64,000 bases of DNA from Ilumatobacteraceae bacterium (GTDB taxonomy: Bacteria > Actinomycetota > Acidimicrobiia > Acidimicrobiales > Ilumatobacteraceae), in the NCBI GenBank assembly GCA_021299715.1, contig JAJTEL010000002.1:434001-498000 (forward strand), in the 5' to 3' direction. The position numbers were made by a program, and so were the translations under genes. Below are positions 5,760 to 64,000 of the stretch, piece by piece; positions within the stretch are counted from its first letter, which is position 1, and every line of letters begins with the position of its first letter. The notes below the pieces were generated by a model. It did no database searches and was not told where the DNA came from. It saw only the letters and a program-made list of their open reading frames with translations.

Positions 5760-7103
5760 ATGAATCGCGTGCGTTTACGTGAACAGATGGACCGAGAAGT
5801 GCAGTTGTTTGAATCACGGAATCCGCGTTCGCGCGATTTGGCCCAGTTGGCGCAACAGAACTTGGTGTCGGGGGTACCCATGCCGTGGATGGCGCGATGG
5901 CCCGGACCCTTTCCGGTGTTCTTTCAGCACGCAGCAGGGGCAACATTCCACGATGTAGATGGCCACGAGTACGTGGACTTCTGCCTGGGGGATACAGGCG
6001 CCATGACGGGCCATGCATTGCCCCAGGTAGCTGAAGCACTTCACCGACAGGCCAGTGCGGGCATCACCACCATGTTGCCAAATGATGATTCTGTGTGGGT
6101 GGCCCAGGAACTCAGTCGTCGATTCGGGCTACCGAAGTGGCAGTTTGCAATGACAGCCACCGACGCCAACAGGTTCGTTCTGCGTTTTTCGCGGCACCTG
6201 ACGAAGCGGCCAAAAATTGCTGTGATTGATTGGTGCTATCACGGAACGGTTGATGAAACACTCGCAGTTCTCGATCACGATGGTTCGGTGATTCCGCGGC
6301 CGGGAGCACTTGGCCCCGCGTTTCATCCCCGAGACACCACGGTGGTCATTCCATTCAATGATCTCGTTGCGCTTGAAAAAGCGTTAGCGGTCGGTGATGT
6401 GGCATGCCTGTTGATGGAACCTGCGCTAACGAATATCGGCATCGTTCTCCCTGAAGATGGGTACCTCGCTTCAGTGCGGGACATCACTCGCCGTCACGGA
6501 GTGCTTCTCATTATCGATGAGACGCACACCATTTGCGCGGGTCCCGGCGGTTGCACTCGTGAATGGAATTTGGAGCCTGATTTCTTCGTGATTGGAAAAC
6601 CTATTGGTGGGGGAATGCCAGCCGCGGTGTACGGAATGAGTGCAGACGTGGCGGAACGCTTAGAAAAATCTCTTGTTGTAGACGATGTGGATGTCTCTGG
6701 TGTTGGGGGAACGCTTACGGGAAACGCATTGGCGATGGCGGCTATTAGAGCCACGCTGTCGAGCACACTCTTGCAATCTGATTTCGACTACATGATTCCG
6801 CTAGCCACCGAGTGGACGAAGGGCGTACGAGATGCGTACACGCGAGTGGGATTTGAATGGCATGTTCAGCAGTTGGGTTGCAGAGCCGAGTACTGGTTTT
6901 GTCCACCGCCTAAGAATGGACGGCAGGCAGCAGAAAGCATTGATCATGACCTTGACGCTTATCTCCATCTGTTCTGTCTGAACCGCGGAATTCTTTTAAC
7001 TCCATTTCATAACATGGCGTTGATGTCGCCTAGCCATAACAAACAACATGTCCATATCCACACTGAGGTGTTTAACCAGGCAATGGACACTTTGGTTCCA
7101 TAA
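5760..7103 (+). CDS. Class III PLP-dependent aminotransferase
   Basis: Fold-type I aminotransferase, class III (glutamate-1-semialdehyde-aminomutase-like branch), 447 residues. IIDETH (251-256) carries the pyridine-nitrogen aspartate D253, and VIGKPIGGG carries the Schiff-base lysine K280; a GGTLTGNALAMAA segment follows. The ATG is preceded four bases away by a strong GGGAGG ribosome site, unlike the leaderless-looking genes around it. It faces the leftward carbamoylase-xdh operon, so it may transaminate the amino acid or beta-amino acid freed there; that is inference. It is not the heme-pathway HemL, because the sequence diverges around the active site and there are no tetrapyrrole neighbours. 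Confidence 0.85.
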   Translation: MNRVRLREQMDREVQLFESRNPRSRDLAQLAQQNLVSGVPMPWMARWPGPFPVFFQHAAGATFHDVDGHEYVDFCLGDTGAMTGHALPQVAEALHRQASAGITTMLPNDDSVWVAQELSRRFGLPKWQFAMTATDANRFVLRFSRHLTKRPKIAVIDWCYHGTVDETLAVLDHDGSVIPRPGALGPAFHPRDTTVVIPFNDLVALEKALAVGDVACLLMEPALTNIGIVLPEDGYLASVRDITRRHGVLLIIDETHTICAGPGGCTREWNLEPDFFVIGKPIGGGMPAAVYGMSADVAERLEKSLVVDDVDVSGVGGTLTGNALAMAAIRATLSSTLLQSDFDYMIPLATEWTKGVRDAYTRVGFEWHVQQLGCRAEYWFCPPPKNGRQAAESIDHDLDAYLHLFCLNRGILLTPFHNMALMSPSHNKQHVHIHTEVFNQAMDTLVP

Positions 7104-7105
7104 TT

Positions 7106-7834
7106 ATGGAAGGCATCGAGATTATTTGGATTATTGCTGTAGTAGCGGTGTCTGCTTTTGCACAGTCGTTAGCTGGTTTTGGTTTTGGCTTGCTGGCCGT
7201 TCCGCTTATGACGCTGTTCGTCGATGCACACGACGCCGTCATCGTTGCAACAATGATTGGTGCAGTATCAACAATTGCGCAAGCAATTCTTGATAGAGAA
7301 CATTGTGAATGGCCAACGGCTCGCCGTCTATCAATTGCGGCGTACGCAGGAATGCCCCTTGGTCTCTTCGCATTCGTGATTGTTTCGGAATCGGCAATGC
7401 GTCTTGTTTTGGGCATTGTTGTACTTCTTGCCACTCTTGTTCTCGCACGAGGATTTACTTTCACAGGACAATCACGGTTCGTGGAATGGATAATGGGAGT
7501 AATGAGCGGAGTTCTCTCCACGTCCACATCAACGAACGGCCCACCGTTGGTGTTTCTCCTGCAGGCGAGACAAATGGAAGCACACACATTTCGTGCGACC
7601 ATTAACACCGTCTTTGCGTTATCAAATTTTGGTGCGATTTCTTTATTTGCTATTTCTGGAAATGTGGAGGCAAACGGAATAGTGGCAGCCGCGGCATCTC
7701 TGCCTATTTTGTTTCTTGCGCTTCGCGCGGGTTACGCATTACGTCCACGTGTGGACGGAGCAGTGTTCAAAAAACTGGTTCTTGTCATGCTTGTGTTGTC
7801 GGGAGTCAGTGTTTTAACTTCTGCGTTTGCGTAG
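7106..7834 (+). CDS. TauE/SafE family membrane permease
   Basis: Predicted inner-membrane transporter of the sulfite exporter TauE/SafE family, 242 residues with about seven or eight hydrophobic segments. It starts with the family-typical SLAGFGFGLLAVPLM stretch (near residues 20-34), and a second half begins around GVLSTSTSTNGPPLVF, matching the family's internal duplication and its conserved NGPP motif. It begins two bases after the aminotransferase stop, so both are probably on one transcript. Family members export small anions such as sulfite or sulfoacetate; in this context it may move a product or substrate of the catabolic block, but the sequence does not show which. Confidence 0.85.
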   Translation: MEGIEIIWIIAVVAVSAFAQSLAGFGFGLLAVPLMTLFVDAHDAVIVATMIGAVSTIAQAILDREHCEWPTARRLSIAAYAGMPLGLFAFVIVSESAMRLVLGIVVLLATLVLARGFTFTGQSRFVEWIMGVMSGVLSTSTSTNGPPLVFLLQARQMEAHTFRATINTVFALSNFGAISLFAISGNVEANGIVAAAASLPILFLALRAGYALRPRVDGAVFKKLVLVMLVLSGVSVLTSAFA

Positions 7835-8560
7835 TTAATCGTGTCCGAACATTGTGAGCCAGGCTTCTTTGGTCTTAGGTTTAAAGACATAGTTATGCGC
7901 CTTCACATCGCTGAGTCGGGCAGCGGGTGGTTCGGAGTACCTATGTCCAGGCAAGACAACTGTCTCGTCGGGAAGTGTCGCTAGACGTGACAAACTCTCG
8001 TACATCTGCCCAACATCTGATCCGGGCAAATCGGTGCGACCACAACCGTCCAAAAACAGAGTGTCGCCCGATACGAGACATCCGTTCACCAGAAAGCATT
8101 GGCTACCAGGAGTATGGCCCGGAGTGTGAACGAGAACTATTTCAAGTTCCCCAACTGTGACGATGTCACCCGATGCGTGGGCCACTAGGTCCTTTTCACT
8201 CAAGCCTGTCGTTCTGACCACCCAGGGAACTTCATTTTCATTGACATGTATGGGGACATTGCATTCCTCAAGAAGAGATGAAATTCCCTGAATTGTGTGC
8301 CCCATCATGCTGCCGCCAATGTGGTCTGCGTGATAGTGGCTAGCGAGAGCTCCAACGACTTTCATTCCATCGTCTTCTGCAATTGCAACAAGGTCGTGCA
8401 CTGCATAGGCCGGGTCCACAATCACGCACTCACCAGAATCTCGATCTCCGAGCAAATAGGCGAAGTTGACCATCTGCGTAGCCATCATGTCGCCCTGTGC
8501 GAAATCCTGACCACTTAACAATTGGCGAAAGTAGAAGCGATGGCTCTCTGTGGTGCTCAT
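7835..8560 (-). CDS. Metallo-beta-lactamase-fold hydrolase, glyoxalase II-like
   Basis: MBL-fold enzyme of 241 residues. The metal motif SHYHADHIGG gives H75, H77, D79 and H80; further ligands lie in HTPGHTPGS, SGDTLF (bridging Asp) and PGHRYSEP. The GCGRTDLPGSD segment is typical of the glyoxalase II / persulfide dioxygenase-like branch, so it may act on a thioester or persulfide, but the exact substrate is not determined. Its stop abuts the stop of the permease gene, and its start lies 18 bases from the divergent ProA-like gene. Reverse-strand TATTCT ends seven bases upstream of the ATG. Confidence 0.88.
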   Translation of the reverse strand: MSTTESHRFYFRQLLSGQDFAQGDMMATQMVNFAYLLGDRDSGECVIVDPAYAVHDLVAIAEDDGMKVVGALASHYHADHIGGSMMGHTIQGISSLLEECNVPIHVNENEVPWVVRTTGLSEKDLVAHASGDIVTVGELEIVLVHTPGHTPGSQCFLVNGCLVSGDTLFLDGCGRTDLPGSDVGQMYESLSRLATLPDETVVLPGHRYSEPPAARLSDVKAHNYVFKPKTKEAWLTMFGHD

Positions 8561-57255: not shown

Positions 57256-57579
57256 GTGTTCAACCTCACTGGGAGCGAAATTGTCTTTCTTCTCCTGGCT
57301 GGCTTAGTTGTCCTAGGCCCAGAGCGACTACCAGGAGTCCTTCGAACCGTGGGACGCGTCTACGGAGAAGTCCGGAAAATGGCTCAGGGACTAGAGCGAG
57401 AAATCAAGGACACGTTTGCAGAGCCCGTTTCCGACTTACGTAAGACTGCCGATCAGATAAAGACTGGCTTCGGCGAAGTGGACACCGAACCATCTCCGCC
57501 AATGCGGCCAGAAAAGTCCGCCACACCCGAAGAGTTGGCAGCAATAGAGGACCAACCGCAGCCAGGTAACGACCAATGA
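57256..57579 (+). CDS. Twin-arginine translocase subunit TatA/TatB
   Basis: Sec-independent translocase subunit, 107 residues. One N-terminal membrane helix (SEIVFLLLAGLVVLGPERLPG) with the acidic Glu near its start leads into an amphipathic helix (VLRTVGRVYGEVRKMAQGLE) and a charged, Pro-rich tail. The EIVFLL...VLGPERLP form is closer to TatB than TatA. GTG 57256 is chosen; the open frame upstream overlaps the divergent GDPD gene. It overlaps tatC by four bases. Confidence 0.9.
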   Translation: MFNLTGSEIVFLLLAGLVVLGPERLPGVLRTVGRVYGEVRKMAQGLEREIKDTFAEPVSDLRKTADQIKTGFGEVDTEPSPPMRPEKSATPEELAAIEDQPQPGNDQ

Positions 57580-58340
57580 GTGCATCAACGCCCGACGGCT
57601 CCATGAGCGTGATGGACCATCTTCGCGAACTTCGTCAGCGCGTCATTCGCGCACTCTTGGCGGTTGCCGTTGGAACAATGGTGATGCTTGCTGCGTACGA
57701 CCCTGTAAAGAATTGGCTCACACTCCCATACCGAAATTTGTGCTCGTCGCGCCCCGAATTCAAATGTGATGGTTCGCTCTTTGCCCTTGGACCACTTGAT
57801 GGATTCACGGCGCGTTTACGGGTGTGTGCGTACGGCGGACTTGTTTTGGCGCTCCCCGTCGTGCTGTGGCAAATCTGGCGATTTATTGTTCCGGCATTGA
57901 ACAAAACAGAGAAGCGCTATGCAGTCCCGTTTATTTTGTCGTCTGTTGTTTTGTTCGCTGCCGGATGTTCCATTGCGTATTGGACTTTAGATAAGGCACT
58001 CGAATTCCTTATCACGTGGTCTGGTTCGGATATCACCGAGGCATACAGAATCACTGACTACATCATGTTGGTCGTCATGATGATGCTTGCATTCGGCGTT
58101 GGTTTCTTAAGTCCTGTGTTATTGGTCTTTTTGCAATTAGTAAATGCCGTTCGACCACAGACCCTCATTAAGCAATGGCGCTATGCGCTGGTCAGCATCT
58201 TTGTCCTCGCAGCAGTTATTACACCCTCCGGAGACCCCGTCAGCCTGCTCGCTTTGGCTGTGCCGCTCTCCGTGTTGTTTCTTATTTCAATTCTCGTTGG
58301 CTGGCTACTAACGCGTAAACGTCCGGCCACCGCAATATGA
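57576..58340 (+). CDS. tatC: Twin-arginine translocase subunit TatC
   Basis: Receptor of the Tat export pathway for folded proteins, 254 residues with six membrane segments. The conserved start HLRELRQRVIRALLA, the first periplasmic loop with DGFTARLRV, and a C-terminal membrane pair with the VITPSGDPVS motif are all present. It overlaps the helicase gene by four bases, so tatB-tatC-helY are coupled, an order also found in mycobacteria. Confidence 0.96.
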   Translation: MSASTPDGSMSVMDHLRELRQRVIRALLAVAVGTMVMLAAYDPVKNWLTLPYRNLCSSRPEFKCDGSLFALGPLDGFTARLRVCAYGGLVLALPVVLWQIWRFIVPALNKTEKRYAVPFILSSVVLFAAGCSIAYWTLDKALEFLITWSGSDITEAYRITDYIMLVVMMMLAFGVGFLSPVLLVFLQLVNAVRPQTLIKQWRYALVSIFVLAAVITPSGDPVSLLALAVPLSVLFLISILVGWLLTRKRPATAI

Positions 58341-60874
58341 GCACATTGAGAGATCAGTTCCTCTCTCAACTTTCGTATCAGCCAGACGCCTTTCAAGTAA
58401 AGGCCATGGACTCAATCGATGCAGATGCTTCGGTACTTGTTGCGGCACCAACAGGTTCAGGAAAGACCCTTATTGCCGAGTATGGCATTGCACGCGCTCA
58501 ATCATTGAAACGCAGAGCGTTCTACACAACACCCATCAAGGCCTTGTCGAACCAGAAGTTTCGCGACCTTGGTGAGCTATACGGCGCACACAACGTTGGG
58601 TTAGTAACGGGAGATAACGCCATTAACGCTGACGCACCGGTAGTGGTCATGACCACAGAAGTGTTGCGCAACATGATCTATGCGTCGTCGCACAGATTGA
58701 ATGATCTTGGAGTTGTCATTCTCGACGAAGTTCATTATTTGCAAGACGCATATCGCGGTCCAGTCTGGGAAGAAGTCATCATTCAACTTGACCCAGAGGT
58801 ACAACTGGTCTGCCTCTCGGCCACCGTGTCGAATGCGGACGAAGTATGCGAGTGGCTATCTACAGTGCGGGGAAGAACAGACGTGGTGGTCGAGACCACT
58901 CGACCAATTGAACTTGTTAATCATTTCGCGGTACACGACAAAGCATCTGACAAGACTGAAATGTTCCACACCATTGTTGGTGGAGAACCTAATCGCCACG
59001 TTCAACGACTTCTCTCCGGAGGACGACCTAACGGTGGACGTCAAGGCCAGTCCAAGAAGGCTCGACGATTTTCTCCGCCCACTCGACCCGAAACCGTTGA
59101 GTTGCTTGAAGACAACGCGATGTTGCCAGCGATTGTGTTTATTTTTAGTAGAGCTCAGTGTGAAGATGCCGTTGCATCATGCATGCGTGCGGGAATCATC
59201 CTCACAAGTGCAGATGAAGAATCTCAAATTATTGAGATTGTGGAGCGACACTGCGAATCTCTCAGCGATGACGATCGAGTTGCGCTGGAATATTCACACT
59301 TTCTTGACGACATTGGAACTGGCGTGTCATGTCATCACGCGGGAATGATTCCAATGTTTAAAGAAGCAGTTGAAGAGTGCTTTGTTAAGGGGCTTGTAAA
59401 AGTGGTTTTCGCCACAGAAACCTTGGCAGTCGGAATCAATATGCCAGCGCGTGCTGTCGTTATTGAGAAACTTACGAAGTACACCGGAGACCATCATCAA
59501 CTGCTGCGCGCCTCGGAGTTCACCCAACTCACCGGACGTGCCGGGCGTCGCGGACTAGACGACATCGGTCATGCCATCTCCCTATGGAACCCATTTGTGA
59601 CTTTTGAACAAGTTGCTGGTCTTGCTCTCAGTAAAAGCTTCCGATTGACATCTGCTTTTCGACCAACGTTCAATATGGCCGTGAACATGGTGCGAAATCA
59701 TTCCGAGGACGGAGCCCATCACATTCTGAATTTATCTTTTGCTCAGTTTCAGGCAGACCGAGATGTTGTGACGTCCGAGGCATTGCTAGAGAAGAAACGC
59801 CGCGAATTGGCTCTACTAGAACGCAGTGCTCCGCTTGAGTACGAAGCAGAAAGCACTCCTACCGGGGCTTCCTCTGTGGAAGCCGAAATAGCTCTCAGAG
59901 CGCTTCGTCCAGGAGATGTCGTGATGTTTGACGCGTCGAACATTCGAGGACGGGGACTGGTGCTCTCTACTGCTGCACGTCGCGCTGGAATTCGCCTCAC
60001 CGTACTCACTCCGTCCAAGAAAACGCTTGAGGTGATGGCCAAAGACTTGCGTTCGCTACCACTGAAAGGCGCACACGTAGATTTACCCATTCCTTTTGAA
60101 CCAACCCGAACAGAATTCATAAAAGAGGCTGTTTCACGTTTGGTGAAGGCAAAGGTTGACGACACCGCCACACGTGCAATTGAATTTTCCGGCGAGAGCC
60201 GTATTGCTGATTCTCCTATCAGTGCAAAGAGCATCAAGCGACTTCGACGCGAAATTGACCAAATGGAAGATCGCTCTCGCAACAGAGCAGGTTCTGTTAG
60301 TGCTCGATTCATGGATGTAGTGGAACTTCTCGAAGACCTTGGCTATATCGATGATTGGAGCCTCACACCCAAGGGGGAAACCTTGTCGGGTATTTTTCAT
60401 GAGAGCGACTTGTTAGTTGTTGAAGTGATGGACAAAGGAATCCTGAATGGCCTGTCCGTTAACGATTTGGTTGCGGTGCTCTCCACGCTCATTTACGAGC
60501 CACGAGGTGGCGATTCGGGCGGTCCAACACGATGGCCATCAGACATCATTCGTCAGAGATTCAAGAGGATTGAAAAACTCAGTCAGCGACTACAAGACGC
60601 ACAGCGCGAAAGAGGATTACACGTTCATCGCTCTCCACACGGAGGACTTGCGTTTGAATGTGCTGGTTGGGCGTCAGGTAAACCGTTGTCCAAGATTCTC
60701 GATCCAGAACTCACTCCCGGTGACTTTGTGCGTTCAATTCGCCAACTTATTGATTTGCTTCGCCAGATTGTTACAACGTCAAACAACGAGGAGCTGCGAA
60801 CAACAGCCGAGTTAGCGATTAGATCTATCGACAGGGGAGTTGTTGCTGCTGCACAAGGAGCCAACGCATCATGA
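58337..60874 (+). CDS. helY: DEAD/DEAH RNA helicase of the Ski2-like HelY type
   Basis: 845-residue superfamily 2 helicase. Walker A APTGSGKT is at 37-44, DEVH near 131, SATVSN follows, and QLTGRAGRRGLDDIGHA is motif VI. A long C-terminal part (about 420-845) includes helix-rich Ski2-like and DSHCT-type regions. It likely unwinds structured RNA for turnover. Overlaps of four bases link it to tatC upstream and the next gene downstream. Confidence 0.94.
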   Translation: MSTLRDQFLSQLSYQPDAFQVKAMDSIDADASVLVAAPTGSGKTLIAEYGIARAQSLKRRAFYTTPIKALSNQKFRDLGELYGAHNVGLVTGDNAINADAPVVVMTTEVLRNMIYASSHRLNDLGVVILDEVHYLQDAYRGPVWEEVIIQLDPEVQLVCLSATVSNADEVCEWLSTVRGRTDVVVETTRPIELVNHFAVHDKASDKTEMFHTIVGGEPNRHVQRLLSGGRPNGGRQGQSKKARRFSPPTRPETVELLEDNAMLPAIVFIFSRAQCEDAVASCMRAGIILTSADEESQIIEIVERHCESLSDDDRVALEYSHFLDDIGTGVSCHHAGMIPMFKEAVEECFVKGLVKVVFATETLAVGINMPARAVVIEKLTKYTGDHHQLLRASEFTQLTGRAGRRGLDDIGHAISLWNPFVTFEQVAGLALSKSFRLTSAFRPTFNMAVNMVRNHSEDGAHHILNLSFAQFQADRDVVTSEALLEKKRRELALLERSAPLEYEAESTPTGASSVEAEIALRALRPGDVVMFDASNIRGRGLVLSTAARRAGIRLTVLTPSKKTLEVMAKDLRSLPLKGAHVDLPIPFEPTRTEFIKEAVSRLVKAKVDDTATRAIEFSGESRIADSPISAKSIKRLRREIDQMEDRSRNRAGSVSARFMDVVELLEDLGYIDDWSLTPKGETLSGIFHESDLLVVEVMDKGILNGLSVNDLVAVLSTLIYEPRGGDSGGPTRWPSDIIRQRFKRIEKLSQRLQDAQRERGLHVHRSPHGGLAFECAGWASGKPLSKILDPELTPGDFVRSIRQLIDLLRQIVTTSNNEELRTTAELAIRSIDRGVVAAAQGANAS

Positions 60875-61473
60875 CCATTCGTAAGGGTGAAGAATGGGGA
60901 GTGCGAGTGATGTGCCCAGAAGAACGCGAGATTGCAGAAGACGACTTCGATGCTTCACGCCACGATTCATCGTCTGTTTTCTCAGTGATTCGTGGAGACC
61001 TGCACTTGTCTCTTGGGTCACCAAAGGTTCCCATCATTGGCCACGAGTGCACAGCGGTTCCCATTGATGCACTCCGATGCACGGTGACCGCACCTTCTGG
61101 CGAACAACGTGATCTCTTTGCCATCTCGTCAATCACACTTGGCTCGTGGTGGCGGGGGTCATTCGTCGTTCTATCGAATAGCGGCTTCTACAACGGACTC
61201 AACATTGCCCCTCGGTCGCATCCCAATGACGGTGAGTGTGATGTGATGGTCATGGAACGAAATCTTCCCTTCCGTCAGCGCGTCTTAGCCCGTCAAAAAG
61301 CAAAGACGGGAACTCATGTTCCTCATCCACTCATTTCGCTTCGTCGTAGTACTGAGTTTTCTCATTCAAAACAGTCTCCACGAGAACGATTAGTCCTCGA
61401 CGGCCGCGCTGTTGATAATTGGGTACAACTAGACGTTTCTGTGCTTCCCGATTATTGGACTGTGCTGTTGTAG
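60871..61473 (+). CDS. Orphan lipid-kinase C-terminal (YegS/DAGK-like) domain protein
   Basis: 200-residue soluble protein. SSITLGSWWRGSFVVLSNSG followed by the NIAPRSHPNDGECDVMVMER segment resembles the C-terminal beta-sandwich of YegS/DgkB lipid kinases. The N-terminal ATP-binding domain with its GGDGT motif is absent. It overlaps helY by four bases and is the last gene of that operon. It may bind lipid or serve as a partner for a separate kinase domain; the family call is from motif memory. Confidence 0.7.
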   Translation: MTIRKGEEWGVRVMCPEEREIAEDDFDASRHDSSSVFSVIRGDLHLSLGSPKVPIIGHECTAVPIDALRCTVTAPSGEQRDLFAISSITLGSWWRGSFVVLSNSGFYNGLNIAPRSHPNDGECDVMVMERNLPFRQRVLARQKAKTGTHVPHPLISLRRSTEFSHSKQSPRERLVLDGRAVDNWVQLDVSVLPDYWTVLL

Positions 61474-61519
61474 ACCTCAACATGCACGGCTGATTCGTTC
61501 GTCCGTCATAATGGAGACC

Positions 61520-62719
61520 ATGGACACCGCCGTGGATGAACTGAAGCAACAGGCCTGTGAGCGAATTGACGCAGTCGCGCAGCAACTCATTGATGTCAGC
61601 CACAGCATTCACGCACGTCCTGAACAGAATTTCGCGGAGGTCTATGCATCTGAACTCCTCACACGTACGGCCAACGAATTAGGACTTCCCACCGAACTCA
61701 ATATGTACGGTTGCGACACCGGTTTTTCGGGTGAGGCAGGCAACGGACCCACCGTGTGCATCATGAGTGAATACGACGCTTTACCCGATATTGGACACGG
61801 ATGTGGTCACAACATCATTGCTGCCGCTGGTTTAGGAGCAGCACTCGCACTCGCAGTGGTAGCACCGCAGGCAGGTGGTCGTCTTCGATACCTGGGCACA
61901 CCCGCAGAAGAAGGCGGAGGTGGAAAACTTGTGATGGCACGTAACGGTGCTCTCAACGGAGTTGACGTGGCCATGATGGTTCATTCCGCCGATGCCGATC
62001 TCACCACTATTGACGCAATCGCCCTTCAACAACTTGTCGTTGAATACACGGGCGAGTCAGCACATGCAGCAGCCGCACCCGAAAAAGGTCGGAATGCTCT
62101 TGATGCGGCAGTTTTGGGGTACATGGCAGTCGCTGCATTGCGCCAGCACATACTTCCCACAGAACGAATCCATGGAATCTTCACACGGGCGGGAGAGAAG
62201 CCAAACATTGTTCCGCGAGATGCAGCAATGGAGTGGTACGTACGTTCAGACACTGTGACAACCCTTTCTGCATTAAAGCCTCGCGTTCTCAATGCTCTGC
62301 AATCAGGCGCATCTGCTTGTGGCTGTGGTTTTTCTCATGAGTGGGTCGATACTCCGTACGCCGACATGGTGACAAACAACAACTTGTCGGCAATGTACGT
62401 TGCTAATGCATCACGTATTGGTCGAAGTGTCACAGTGCCGGGAAGTAACGGACGTCGCGTCGTGGGTAGTACCGACATGGGCAACATCAGCCACCTTGTT
62501 CCATCAATTCACCCCATGATTGCCTCGGCTCCAACGGGAACATCAATTCACACGGTGGACTTTGCGCGTGAATCAATTACACCAATGGCAGGCAAAGCAG
62601 TCATTGATGGTGCCAAAGCTATGGCCATGACGGCCATCGATTTTTGGACGTCTCCCGACCAGCAGCGCGCCATTGCCAAAGAATTTTCCGAAGCCAATGC
62701 GGACAAGGATGTTCTGTAG
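61520..62719 (+). CDS. M20 family amidohydrolase
   Basis: 399-residue metal-dependent amidohydrolase of the M20D type that acts on amide-linked conjugates such as acyl-amino acids or p-aminobenzoyl-glutamate. IGHGCGHNIIAAAG carries metal ligands, GTPAEEGGGGK the catalytic Glu, and AAAAPEKGRNALDA the dimerisation region, with a late SHLVPSIHPM metal histidine. ATG 61520 is chosen because CATAAT ends seven bases upstream; ATG 61511 would add three residues. Distinct from the carbamoylase of the same fold class at 4392-5648. Substrate unknown. Confidence 0.9.
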   Translation: MDTAVDELKQQACERIDAVAQQLIDVSHSIHARPEQNFAEVYASELLTRTANELGLPTELNMYGCDTGFSGEAGNGPTVCIMSEYDALPDIGHGCGHNIIAAAGLGAALALAVVAPQAGGRLRYLGTPAEEGGGGKLVMARNGALNGVDVAMMVHSADADLTTIDAIALQQLVVEYTGESAHAAAAPEKGRNALDAAVLGYMAVAALRQHILPTERIHGIFTRAGEKPNIVPRDAAMEWYVRSDTVTTLSALKPRVLNALQSGASACGCGFSHEWVDTPYADMVTNNNLSAMYVANASRIGRSVTVPGSNGRRVVGSTDMGNISHLVPSIHPMIASAPTGTSIHTVDFARESITPMAGKAVIDGAKAMAMTAIDFWTSPDQQRAIAKEFSEANADKDVL

Positions 62720-62765: not shown

Positions 62766-64000
62766 GTGACGGTTTACGTTCCCGAGGAATTCACACAGGC
62801 AGAGTCGGACATTCTCCGACGTTATTTCACCAATCTCGATCAGCCTGTTTTCGCTCTGGTGAACTTGCCAGAAGTGGTGAAAGGCGCGCTGTTCGCTCGT
62901 TACAGCCGTAGTCCGCGTAGTTTGCGTCGGCTTTTCCTTGACGAGTTCGTCAACGATTTAGAGATTGCCGGAGATGTTGCTGTCGATGCCACCGTGGGTG
63001 TTGATCGCGCTGAATCTCTCTACGAGAAGGTCTTCGTCGAGTACGGCGACGATTCGGTGGCTCAGTTAGGTGGAGTTCACCTTGCGTGTGAGCAGGCATC
63101 CAACATTCTCACCAAAATTCTCGAGTGGGGTCGCCTGATGAGTTACCTCGAACAGAGCACTCGCTACATCGCTTATGACGAGCGCCTCGGTGGTCGCTAT
63201 CGCTACTACCGTGACCCCGACCTACTGGAAGGCAAGTTCGGCACTCGCTATGTGGGGGACATGGACCGCATGTTCGATTCTTACAGCGTTCTGGCCGAGA
63301 CCGTGACCCAACATGTTCGCTCCAGCGTTCCAAAGCAGGCAGGCGACAGCGATTTTGTCTACCGCCAAGCAACTCGTGCAAAAGCACTTGATGCTGTACG
63401 TGGCTTGTTGCCAGCGTCGTCATTATCAAATGTTGGAATTTACGGAAGCGGTCAGGCGTTTGAGGCACTGCTGTTACGAATGCGCGCACACGCACTGCCC
63501 GAAGCTCGTGTCTACGCAGACATGATGCTCACAGAACTTCGAAAAGTAATTCCGTCATTCTTGCGCCGCGTAGATGTCGCAGAACGTGGTGGACAATGGT
63601 CGAATTACTTGGCCACAAATGCAGCCAATATGAATTCTCTAGTGGATGATCTGTTCGGAGACTCCATTGCGTCTGATGTCGACGAAGTAACCCTTGTTGA
63701 TTTCGATCCCGATGGTGAGAACAAAATTGTTGCAGCGGCCTGCTACGCCTATTCACACCTTTCCGAATCGCAGATTCTTGCGCGCGTAGAGAAAATGTCG
63801 GTAGAGCAAAAGACCGACATTCTGCGCAATTACGTTGGAGACAGAGAGAATCGCCGCCACCGGCCTGGTCGCGCATTTGAACGAACCGACTACCGATTCG
63901 ATGTGCTGTCCGATTACGGCGCATTCCGAGACATGCAACGCCACCGCCTGTTAACCATCGAGTGGCAACCACTGACTCCGTATCACGGCTACACCCGTCC
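62766..64000 (+). CDS. ThyX-like flavin-dependent thymidylate synthase homologue (partial)
   Basis: 411 residues are visible from GTG 62766 before the window ends; there is no stop. The protein looks like two ThyX-type halves. The first has VEYGDDSVAQLGGVHLACE and a SYLEQSTRY motif near residues 125-133, but the RHR normally before it reads as LEWGR. The second, near the edge, has RDMQRHRLLTIEWQ with RHR intact, but not the QSxRY part. Canonical ThyX is about 220-250 residues with both on one segment (RHRX7S). It could make dTMP as a two-domain enzyme or have another flavin-dependent role. Confidence 0.82.
   Translation, partial: MTVYVPEEFTQAESDILRRYFTNLDQPVFALVNLPEVVKGALFARYSRSPRSLRRLFLDEFVNDLEIAGDVAVDATVGVDRAESLYEKVFVEYGDDSVAQLGGVHLACEQASNILTKILEWGRLMSYLEQSTRYIAYDERLGGRYRYYRDPDLLEGKFGTRYVGDMDRMFDSYSVLAETVTQHVRSSVPKQAGDSDFVYRQATRAKALDAVRGLLPASSLSNVGIYGSGQAFEALLLRMRAHALPEARVYADMMLTELRKVIPSFLRRVDVAERGGQWSNYLATNAANMNSLVDDLFGDSIASDVDEVTLVDFDPDGENKIVAAACYAYSHLSESQILARVEKMSVEQKTDILRNYVGDRENRRHRPGRAFERTDYRFDVLSDYGAFRDMQRHRLLTIEWQPLTPYHGYTR

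Follow-up and report, generated by a model that had tools for sequence, protein, structure and literature searches.

Architecture of the thyX gene

The window analyzed here, a stretch of 64,000 nucleotides from an Ilumatobacteraceae bacterium, ends inside a thyX gene on the forward strand. This gene starts with a GTG codon at position 62766 and continues past the window end (64000) to a stop at 64367. In the contig record (L003, where it spans 6767-8368), it forms a single open frame of 533 amino acids that is neither cut nor frameshifted. The encoded protein contains two Pfam Thy1 (PF02511) domains, both over the curated cutoff (124.9 bits versus 24.8). The N-half domain (residues 80-264, 63003..63557) was placed by the Pfam stretch and by the match of an N-half profile to residues 57-229 of the Mycobacterium tuberculosis ThyX structure 3gwc, while the C-half domain (residues 309-497, 63690..64000 and on to 64256) was placed by Pfam and by the match of a C-half profile to the Thermotoga maritima and Helicobacter pylori ThyX structures.

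The original prediction, made from the window, stated that the two parts of the ThyX signature are divided between the halves of one protein, and the complete frame confirms it. SYLEQSTRY (residues 126-134, 63141-63167) lies in the first half and QRHRLL (residues 391-396, 63936-63953) in the second. The contiguous RHR(x)nSxR that canonical ThyX carries on one segment is missing, RHR being found in the C-half only and SxRY in the N-half only. The 122 residues past the window end contain NAREAMHMLELR; a second SxNExSxRY, which would have restored an intact motif downstream of 64000, was sought in them and is absent, and the split stands for that reason. The protein also misses the cutoff of the NCBIfam thyX equivalog TIGR02170 (46.9 versus 87.9 bits).

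Upstream of thyX (57576-62719) lie tatC and genes for a DSHCT-domain DEAD-box helicase, a YegS_C-domain protein, and an M20 amidohydrolase. The helicase/YegS/M20 order is repeated at many Acidimicrobiia loci, where the recurrent neighborhood comprises a DSHCT helicase, a YegS-like protein, an M20 amidohydrolase, an acidic protein, a GNAT-like protein, and an enoyl-CoA hydratase-like protein. This neighborhood offers no clue to function.

Occurrence of the tandem form

Matches to tandem ThyX were found in about 95 of the 296 sampled Actinomycetota genomes, and the best 80 loci of the contig scan were all titled Acidimicrobiia or other Actinomycetota. The tandem form also occurs on plasmids assigned to Parabacteroides, Euzebya, Miltoncostaea, Paenibacillus, and Bacillus, whose copies RefSeq names FAD-dependent thymidylate synthase, as well as in phages Tunturi_5, Vibrio Yong, BONAISHI, and Ma-LMM01 and in many viral contigs, several of them longer than 200 kb. 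The copy on plasmid NZ_OY725790.1 (labeled Parabacteroides distasonis; L147) is 48% identical to the window protein, which is unexpected in Bacteroidota.

The location of the gene at the window end, and nothing else, would speak for a split created by misassembly, a frameshift, or a spurious alignment to an unrelated motif. The contig contains one unbroken 533-amino-acid frame, and the same architecture recurs in so many Actinomycetota genomes, plasmids and phages with named records, and viral contigs that such an explanation is hardly credible. The independent records rule out an assembly artifact, and reading the gene as a pseudogene was also rejected.

Division of the active-site residues between the halves

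In homotetrameric ThyX, three subunits build each active site: subunit A contributes RHR and R199, subunit B contributes S71 and R190, and subunit C contributes R87, S105, R107, and Y108 (PMC6514825). R199 of M. tuberculosis ThyX corresponds to R174 of the T. maritima enzyme, and S105, R107, and Y108 correspond to S88, R90, and Y91. S88 and Y91 are critical, and R174 activates dUMP (PMC8316439); H53 is supplied by a third monomer (PMC11940539). Docking places R172 in contact with the dUMP phosphate (PMC9571937); the subunit that supplies it is one that we infer.

A single-sequence PDB search with the full tandem protein gave no match, and profiles of the separate halves were needed. Mapping of the N-half rests on its profile match to 3gwc (E value, 3e-9) and that of the C-half on its profile match to the T. 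maritima and H. pylori structures. For conservation, an alignment of 144 tandem proteins, picked for their general resemblance to the window protein, was enlarged with viral members to 175 proteins from Acidimicrobiia, other Actinomycetota, plasmids of three phyla, and jumbo phages.

In the N-half, the canonical RHR position is occupied by WGR (residues 121-123, 63126..63134), and RHR has been lost here from every protein aligned (0/175). In the SYLEQSTRY segment, the dUMP/catalytic loop, E129, S131, R133, and Y134 are the counterparts of T. maritima E86, S88, R90, and Y91 (the last three also of M. tuberculosis S105, R107, and Y108). R212 (63399..63401) matches M. tuberculosis R172, the dUMP-phosphate arginine at the R147 position of T. 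maritima, and occurs in the N-half only. M. tuberculosis R190 is replaced by Q230, and R199 aligns with R238, which is still Arg in 139/175 N-halves and is thereby the exception to the loss, from each half, of the active-site residues kept by the other. In GDDS (residues 94-97, 63045..63056), D95 stands in place of T. maritima H53 and S97 keeps the position of M. tuberculosis S71; residue 95 is Asp in 138 of the 175 proteins and His in the other 37. Near the N terminus, ARYSRS (residues 44-49, 62895..62912) takes what, judged by eye, is the place of the N-terminal ThyX "ARxS" (T. maritima S30). Eight N-half residues, S47, R48, S97, E129, S131, R133, Y134, and R212, are invariant (175/175).

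The C-half presents the complementary picture. R78-H79-R80 of T. maritima correspond to R392-R394, the FAD-binding RHR motif within QRHRLL; N163 and R165 correspond to N463 and R465, and R174 corresponds to R474. The ExSxRY that should follow RHR is replaced by IEWQPLTP, SxRY is found in none of the 175 C-halves, and residue 447, at the R147 position, is not Arg (Q, S, P, or A). R392, R474, and R484 are invariant, and H393 is retained in 173/175. RHR is altered in four proteins, to RQR in two viral ones (contigs L178 and L211) and to RHNR in two encoded on Bacilli plasmids. A conserved loop, RRHRPGR (residues 363-369, 63852..63872), lies at or near the HxxP segment (H365, 131/175; P367, 164/175), its equivalence to H53 being uncertain owing to an insertion.

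The same partition was seen in all 144 proteins of the first alignment and in the enlarged set of 175. N-half invariance among the viral members is somewhat biased, because the viral set was partly picked by an ExS[TQ]RY motif; visual inspection of two further, more distant proteins of viruses showed STRA or STRK instead of STRY. Judged from these alignments, the allocation of the motif halves to different domains is far beyond chance. It also extends past the single motif to the R147, R174, H53, and NxR positions, and is thus wider than originally predicted. The polypeptide as a whole contains all FAD- and dUMP-binding residues: the C-half holds R78/H79/R80, R165, and R174, the N-half holds E86/S88/R90/Y91 and the R147 position, and D95 occupies the H53 position in the bacterial type. 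As far as residue mapping can tell, the roles of subunits A and C of the homotetramer are cleanly divided, the C-half taking that of A and the N-half that of C.

Origin by duplication

A tree with long branches, built by a quick method from 33 halves of each kind and 11 canonical ThyX proteins, placed all N-halves in one clade (support, 100) and all C-halves in another (support, 91). Since each kind of half forms a single clade, one ancient duplication fits, in agreement with the internal duplication that had been suspected from the window. Direct comparison of the N-half with the C-half gave a score of 32, no higher than that of shuffled sequences (mean, 33.9), and their profiles matched weakly (12.9%). 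The case for duplication is therefore made from the match of both halves to Thy1 and from the tree, and not from identity between them.

Thymidylate synthases in Acidimicrobiia genomes

A family search of the window's genome (92.8% complete) revealed no other Thy1 protein, canonical or tandem, and no ThyA, thymidine kinase (tdk), or dihydrofolate reductase (DHFR; folA), and a dUTPase is present. ThyA and thymidine kinase are also absent from two genomes of the same genus (96 to 97% complete). Across the class, Thy1 was found in 109/119 genomes. All 10 genomes without Thy1 have ThyA, which was matched in just 3 of the 109 with Thy1 (Fisher P of ~3e-12, with genomes counted as if unrelated). DHFR occurs in 9/12 ThyA genomes versus 2/107 of the others, and thymidine kinase occurs in about half of the Acidimicrobiia genomes and in none of the three from the window's genus. 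With the exception of one genus, nearly all Thy1 genomes encode two Thy1 domains, and tandem ThyX appears, on the basis of gene content, to be the sole thymidylate synthase candidate in most of the class.

The exception is a genus represented by eight genomes of ~1 Mb (L004-L011; 8/109), which have a single canonical ThyX of 220 amino acids in place of the tandem form; this suggests that the tandem form was replaced there. In an Acidimicrobiia relative with tandem ThyX (G009, contig C39, 1968-3886), thyA lies in two open frames ~1 kb apart, covering model positions 1-176 and 172-266, with DHFR downstream. This looks like an insertion (an intron, intein, or mobile element).

That ThyA is nearly always absent where tandem ThyX is present argues that the latter replaces it. 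The original prediction had also allowed for a new flavin- or RNA-linked function, a proposal that this complementary distribution does not support; a new RNA-linked function was rejected on these grounds. A broader form of the idea, in which the protein is a degenerate ThyX paralog that makes no dTMP and has taken another role (e.g., in other pyrimidine or RNA methylation or in flavin storage), draws on the lack of a complete canonical motif in either half, on the score far under the NCBIfam thyX cutoff, and on the fact that we found no assay of a tandem ThyX in the literature. Such a paralog would nevertheless be the sole candidate thymidylate synthase in its own genome and in nearly all tandem-carrying Acidimicrobiia genomes, in strict alternation with ThyA and with DHFR absent, as expected of ThyX users. 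The residues of one full site are moreover all retained under strong constraint, divided between the halves, and we consider a degenerate paralog improbable. Our preferred reading, to which we assign a probability of roughly 0.8, is that tandem ThyX acts as a true flavin-dependent thymidylate synthase and arose by ancient duplication and fusion followed by complementary loss. It lacks one defining feature of canonical ThyX, the contiguous motif, and yet very probably works like ThyX.

A proposed model for a shared active site

We modeled a 99% identical relative (L034) as a single chain with AlphaFold2, using 59 tandem sequences (pLDDT, 89.8; pTM, 0.88). The confident model is ThyX-like: in the PDB, it is matched best by structures of T. 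maritima ThyX, with TM-scores by target length of up to 0.74, and the PDB matches listed are all single-domain proteins. In a viral library, the Ma-LMM01 protein matches over nearly the full length.

On these grounds, we propose how a duplicated ThyX could assemble its active sites. The reaction would be that of ThyX, the conversion of dUMP, CH2-THF, and NAD(P)H to dTMP via FAD. The N-half would provide the dUMP-phosphate cradle and the mobile catalytic loop (S131, R133, Y134, E129, and R212), and the C-half would provide the FAD-gripping RHR and the dUMP-activating R474. In the homotetramer, one subunit supplies each site with RHR and R174, another with S88/R90/Y91, and yet another with H53/S71/R165. 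By the same logic, a pair of tandem chains would rebuild the tetramer, such that a C-half (RHR and R474) faces an N-half (S131, R133, Y134, and R212). Two sites would then be complete, and two others would be without both RHR and SxRY. An active site formed from both halves, already envisaged in the original prediction, is thus the most plausible arrangement for a catalytic motif that has been shared out in this way; we infer that the live sites form between unlike halves, and a two-chain pseudo-tetramer probably has two live and two dead sites.

Alternatively, a single half might build working sites, for instance, homotypic sites of the C-half, leaving the other half as a scaffold. Most bacterial-type C-halves do hold RHR, NAR, and R174 together, and R238 at the R174 position of the N-half is mostly Arg. 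Against this, S88-R90-Y91, two of whose residues are those reported as critical (PMC8316439), is missing from every C-half (175/175) and the R147 equivalent from nearly all, whereas the N-halves always hold S88-R90-Y91 and the R147 equivalent and are without RHR. Sites built from one half are accordingly quite improbable.

Beyond the residues that are shared out between unlike halves in our model, tandem proteins partition a third sub-site, the FAD contact made by H53 and NxR from a neighboring subunit, in more than one way. In the bacterial type (136 proteins), the N-half has D95 and no Arg at position 230, and N.R is kept in the C-half; in the phage/Bacilli type (32 proteins), H95 and R230 occur in the N-half, and N.R has been lost from the C-half. 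Five further proteins have H95 only, and two viral ones (L144 and L145) have NxR in both halves; S97 is found in the N-half throughout. Asp at position 53 need not be fatal, because an engineered H53D T. maritima ThyX was crystallized with FAD and dUMP (4kas). Tentatively, and at somewhat less than even odds, tandem ThyX might form an obligately hetero-domain pseudo-tetramer in which two sites are live, two are vestigial, and the third sub-site has moved between the halves, residing in the N-half in phages and Bacilli and in the C-half in the bacterial type. A single gene family would then hold two solutions for dividing a three-subunit active site. The differing partition, as read from the alignment, counts against the proposed quaternary wiring.

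Acidimicrobiia are common in lake, ocean, and soil communities. If our reading is correct, tandem ThyX is the essential thymidylate synthase of most of them and of many jumbo phages. Motif-based ThyX annotation gives too low a score to a large lineage. The family would also constitute a natural experiment in which a three-subunit site has been divided by duplication. Half-site number, interdomain communication, and the roles of the sub-sites could be addressed with mutations confined to a single half, an approach that is not available in homotetrameric ThyX.

Comparison with known ThyX proteins

The tandem form resembles canonical ThyX/FDTS (T. maritima TM0449, M. tuberculosis ThyX, and PBCV-1 ThyX) in its Thy1 fold, in its catalytic residues overall, and in its niche, the genomes carrying it being likewise those in which ThyA is replaced and DHFR is usually absent. 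Canonical proteins of ~220 to 260 amino acids form homotetramers with four identical sites and carry the whole motif on one segment, whereas tandem proteins of ~430 to 580 amino acids have two unlike halves, with the motif and its partner residues divided between them. Thermus thermophilus Thy1 (PDB 6j61) has an extra C-terminal domain and is longer than usual ThyX, but at 270 amino acids its length does not accommodate a second Thy1 domain, and it gave a single-domain match only.

Searching full texts for a ThyX in tandem or duplicated form gave one paper only, that of Valas and Bourne from 2009 (PMC3224940), which mentions a duplicated ThyX of Chloroflexi as uncharacterized. Compared by description only, that protein has an internal domain duplication like that of tandem ThyX, and the duplication has thus been in print since 2009; the matching passage gives no account of a complementary active-site split, of Acidimicrobiia-wide use, or of phage members. 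We found no biochemical study or solved structure of a tandem ThyX in the literature, nor any account of how the site is divided in a complementary manner, of the invariance of this division, or of its spread through the class and among phages. That the partition is the norm in a whole class and in jumbo phages goes beyond what was originally predicted.

Among named phage proteins, the thymidylate synthase of Microcystis phage Ma-LMM01 (gp020) and the thymidilate synthase-like protein of Vibrio phage BONAISHI, members of PHROG 36506 (thymidylate synthase), are likewise tandem; their N-halves contain ExSTRY, and their C-halves contain RHR. They differ from the window protein in their low identity (~20 to 25%), in having His at position 95, and in having lost NxR from the C-half. 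A dCMP deaminase gene adjoins tandem thyX in Tunturi_5, and a dCTP deaminase gene lies three genes upstream of it on the Euzebya plasmid; a divergent ribonucleotide reductase, an NT5C nucleotidase, and an adenylosuccinate synthetase were each seen once as phage neighbors. The deaminase neighbors speak for the enzyme reading, and the single cases are no more than suggestive. In one viral contig (L177:3-2177), the frame upstream of tandem thyX encodes a viral DNA polymerase A with an intein splicing domain and an HNH domain.
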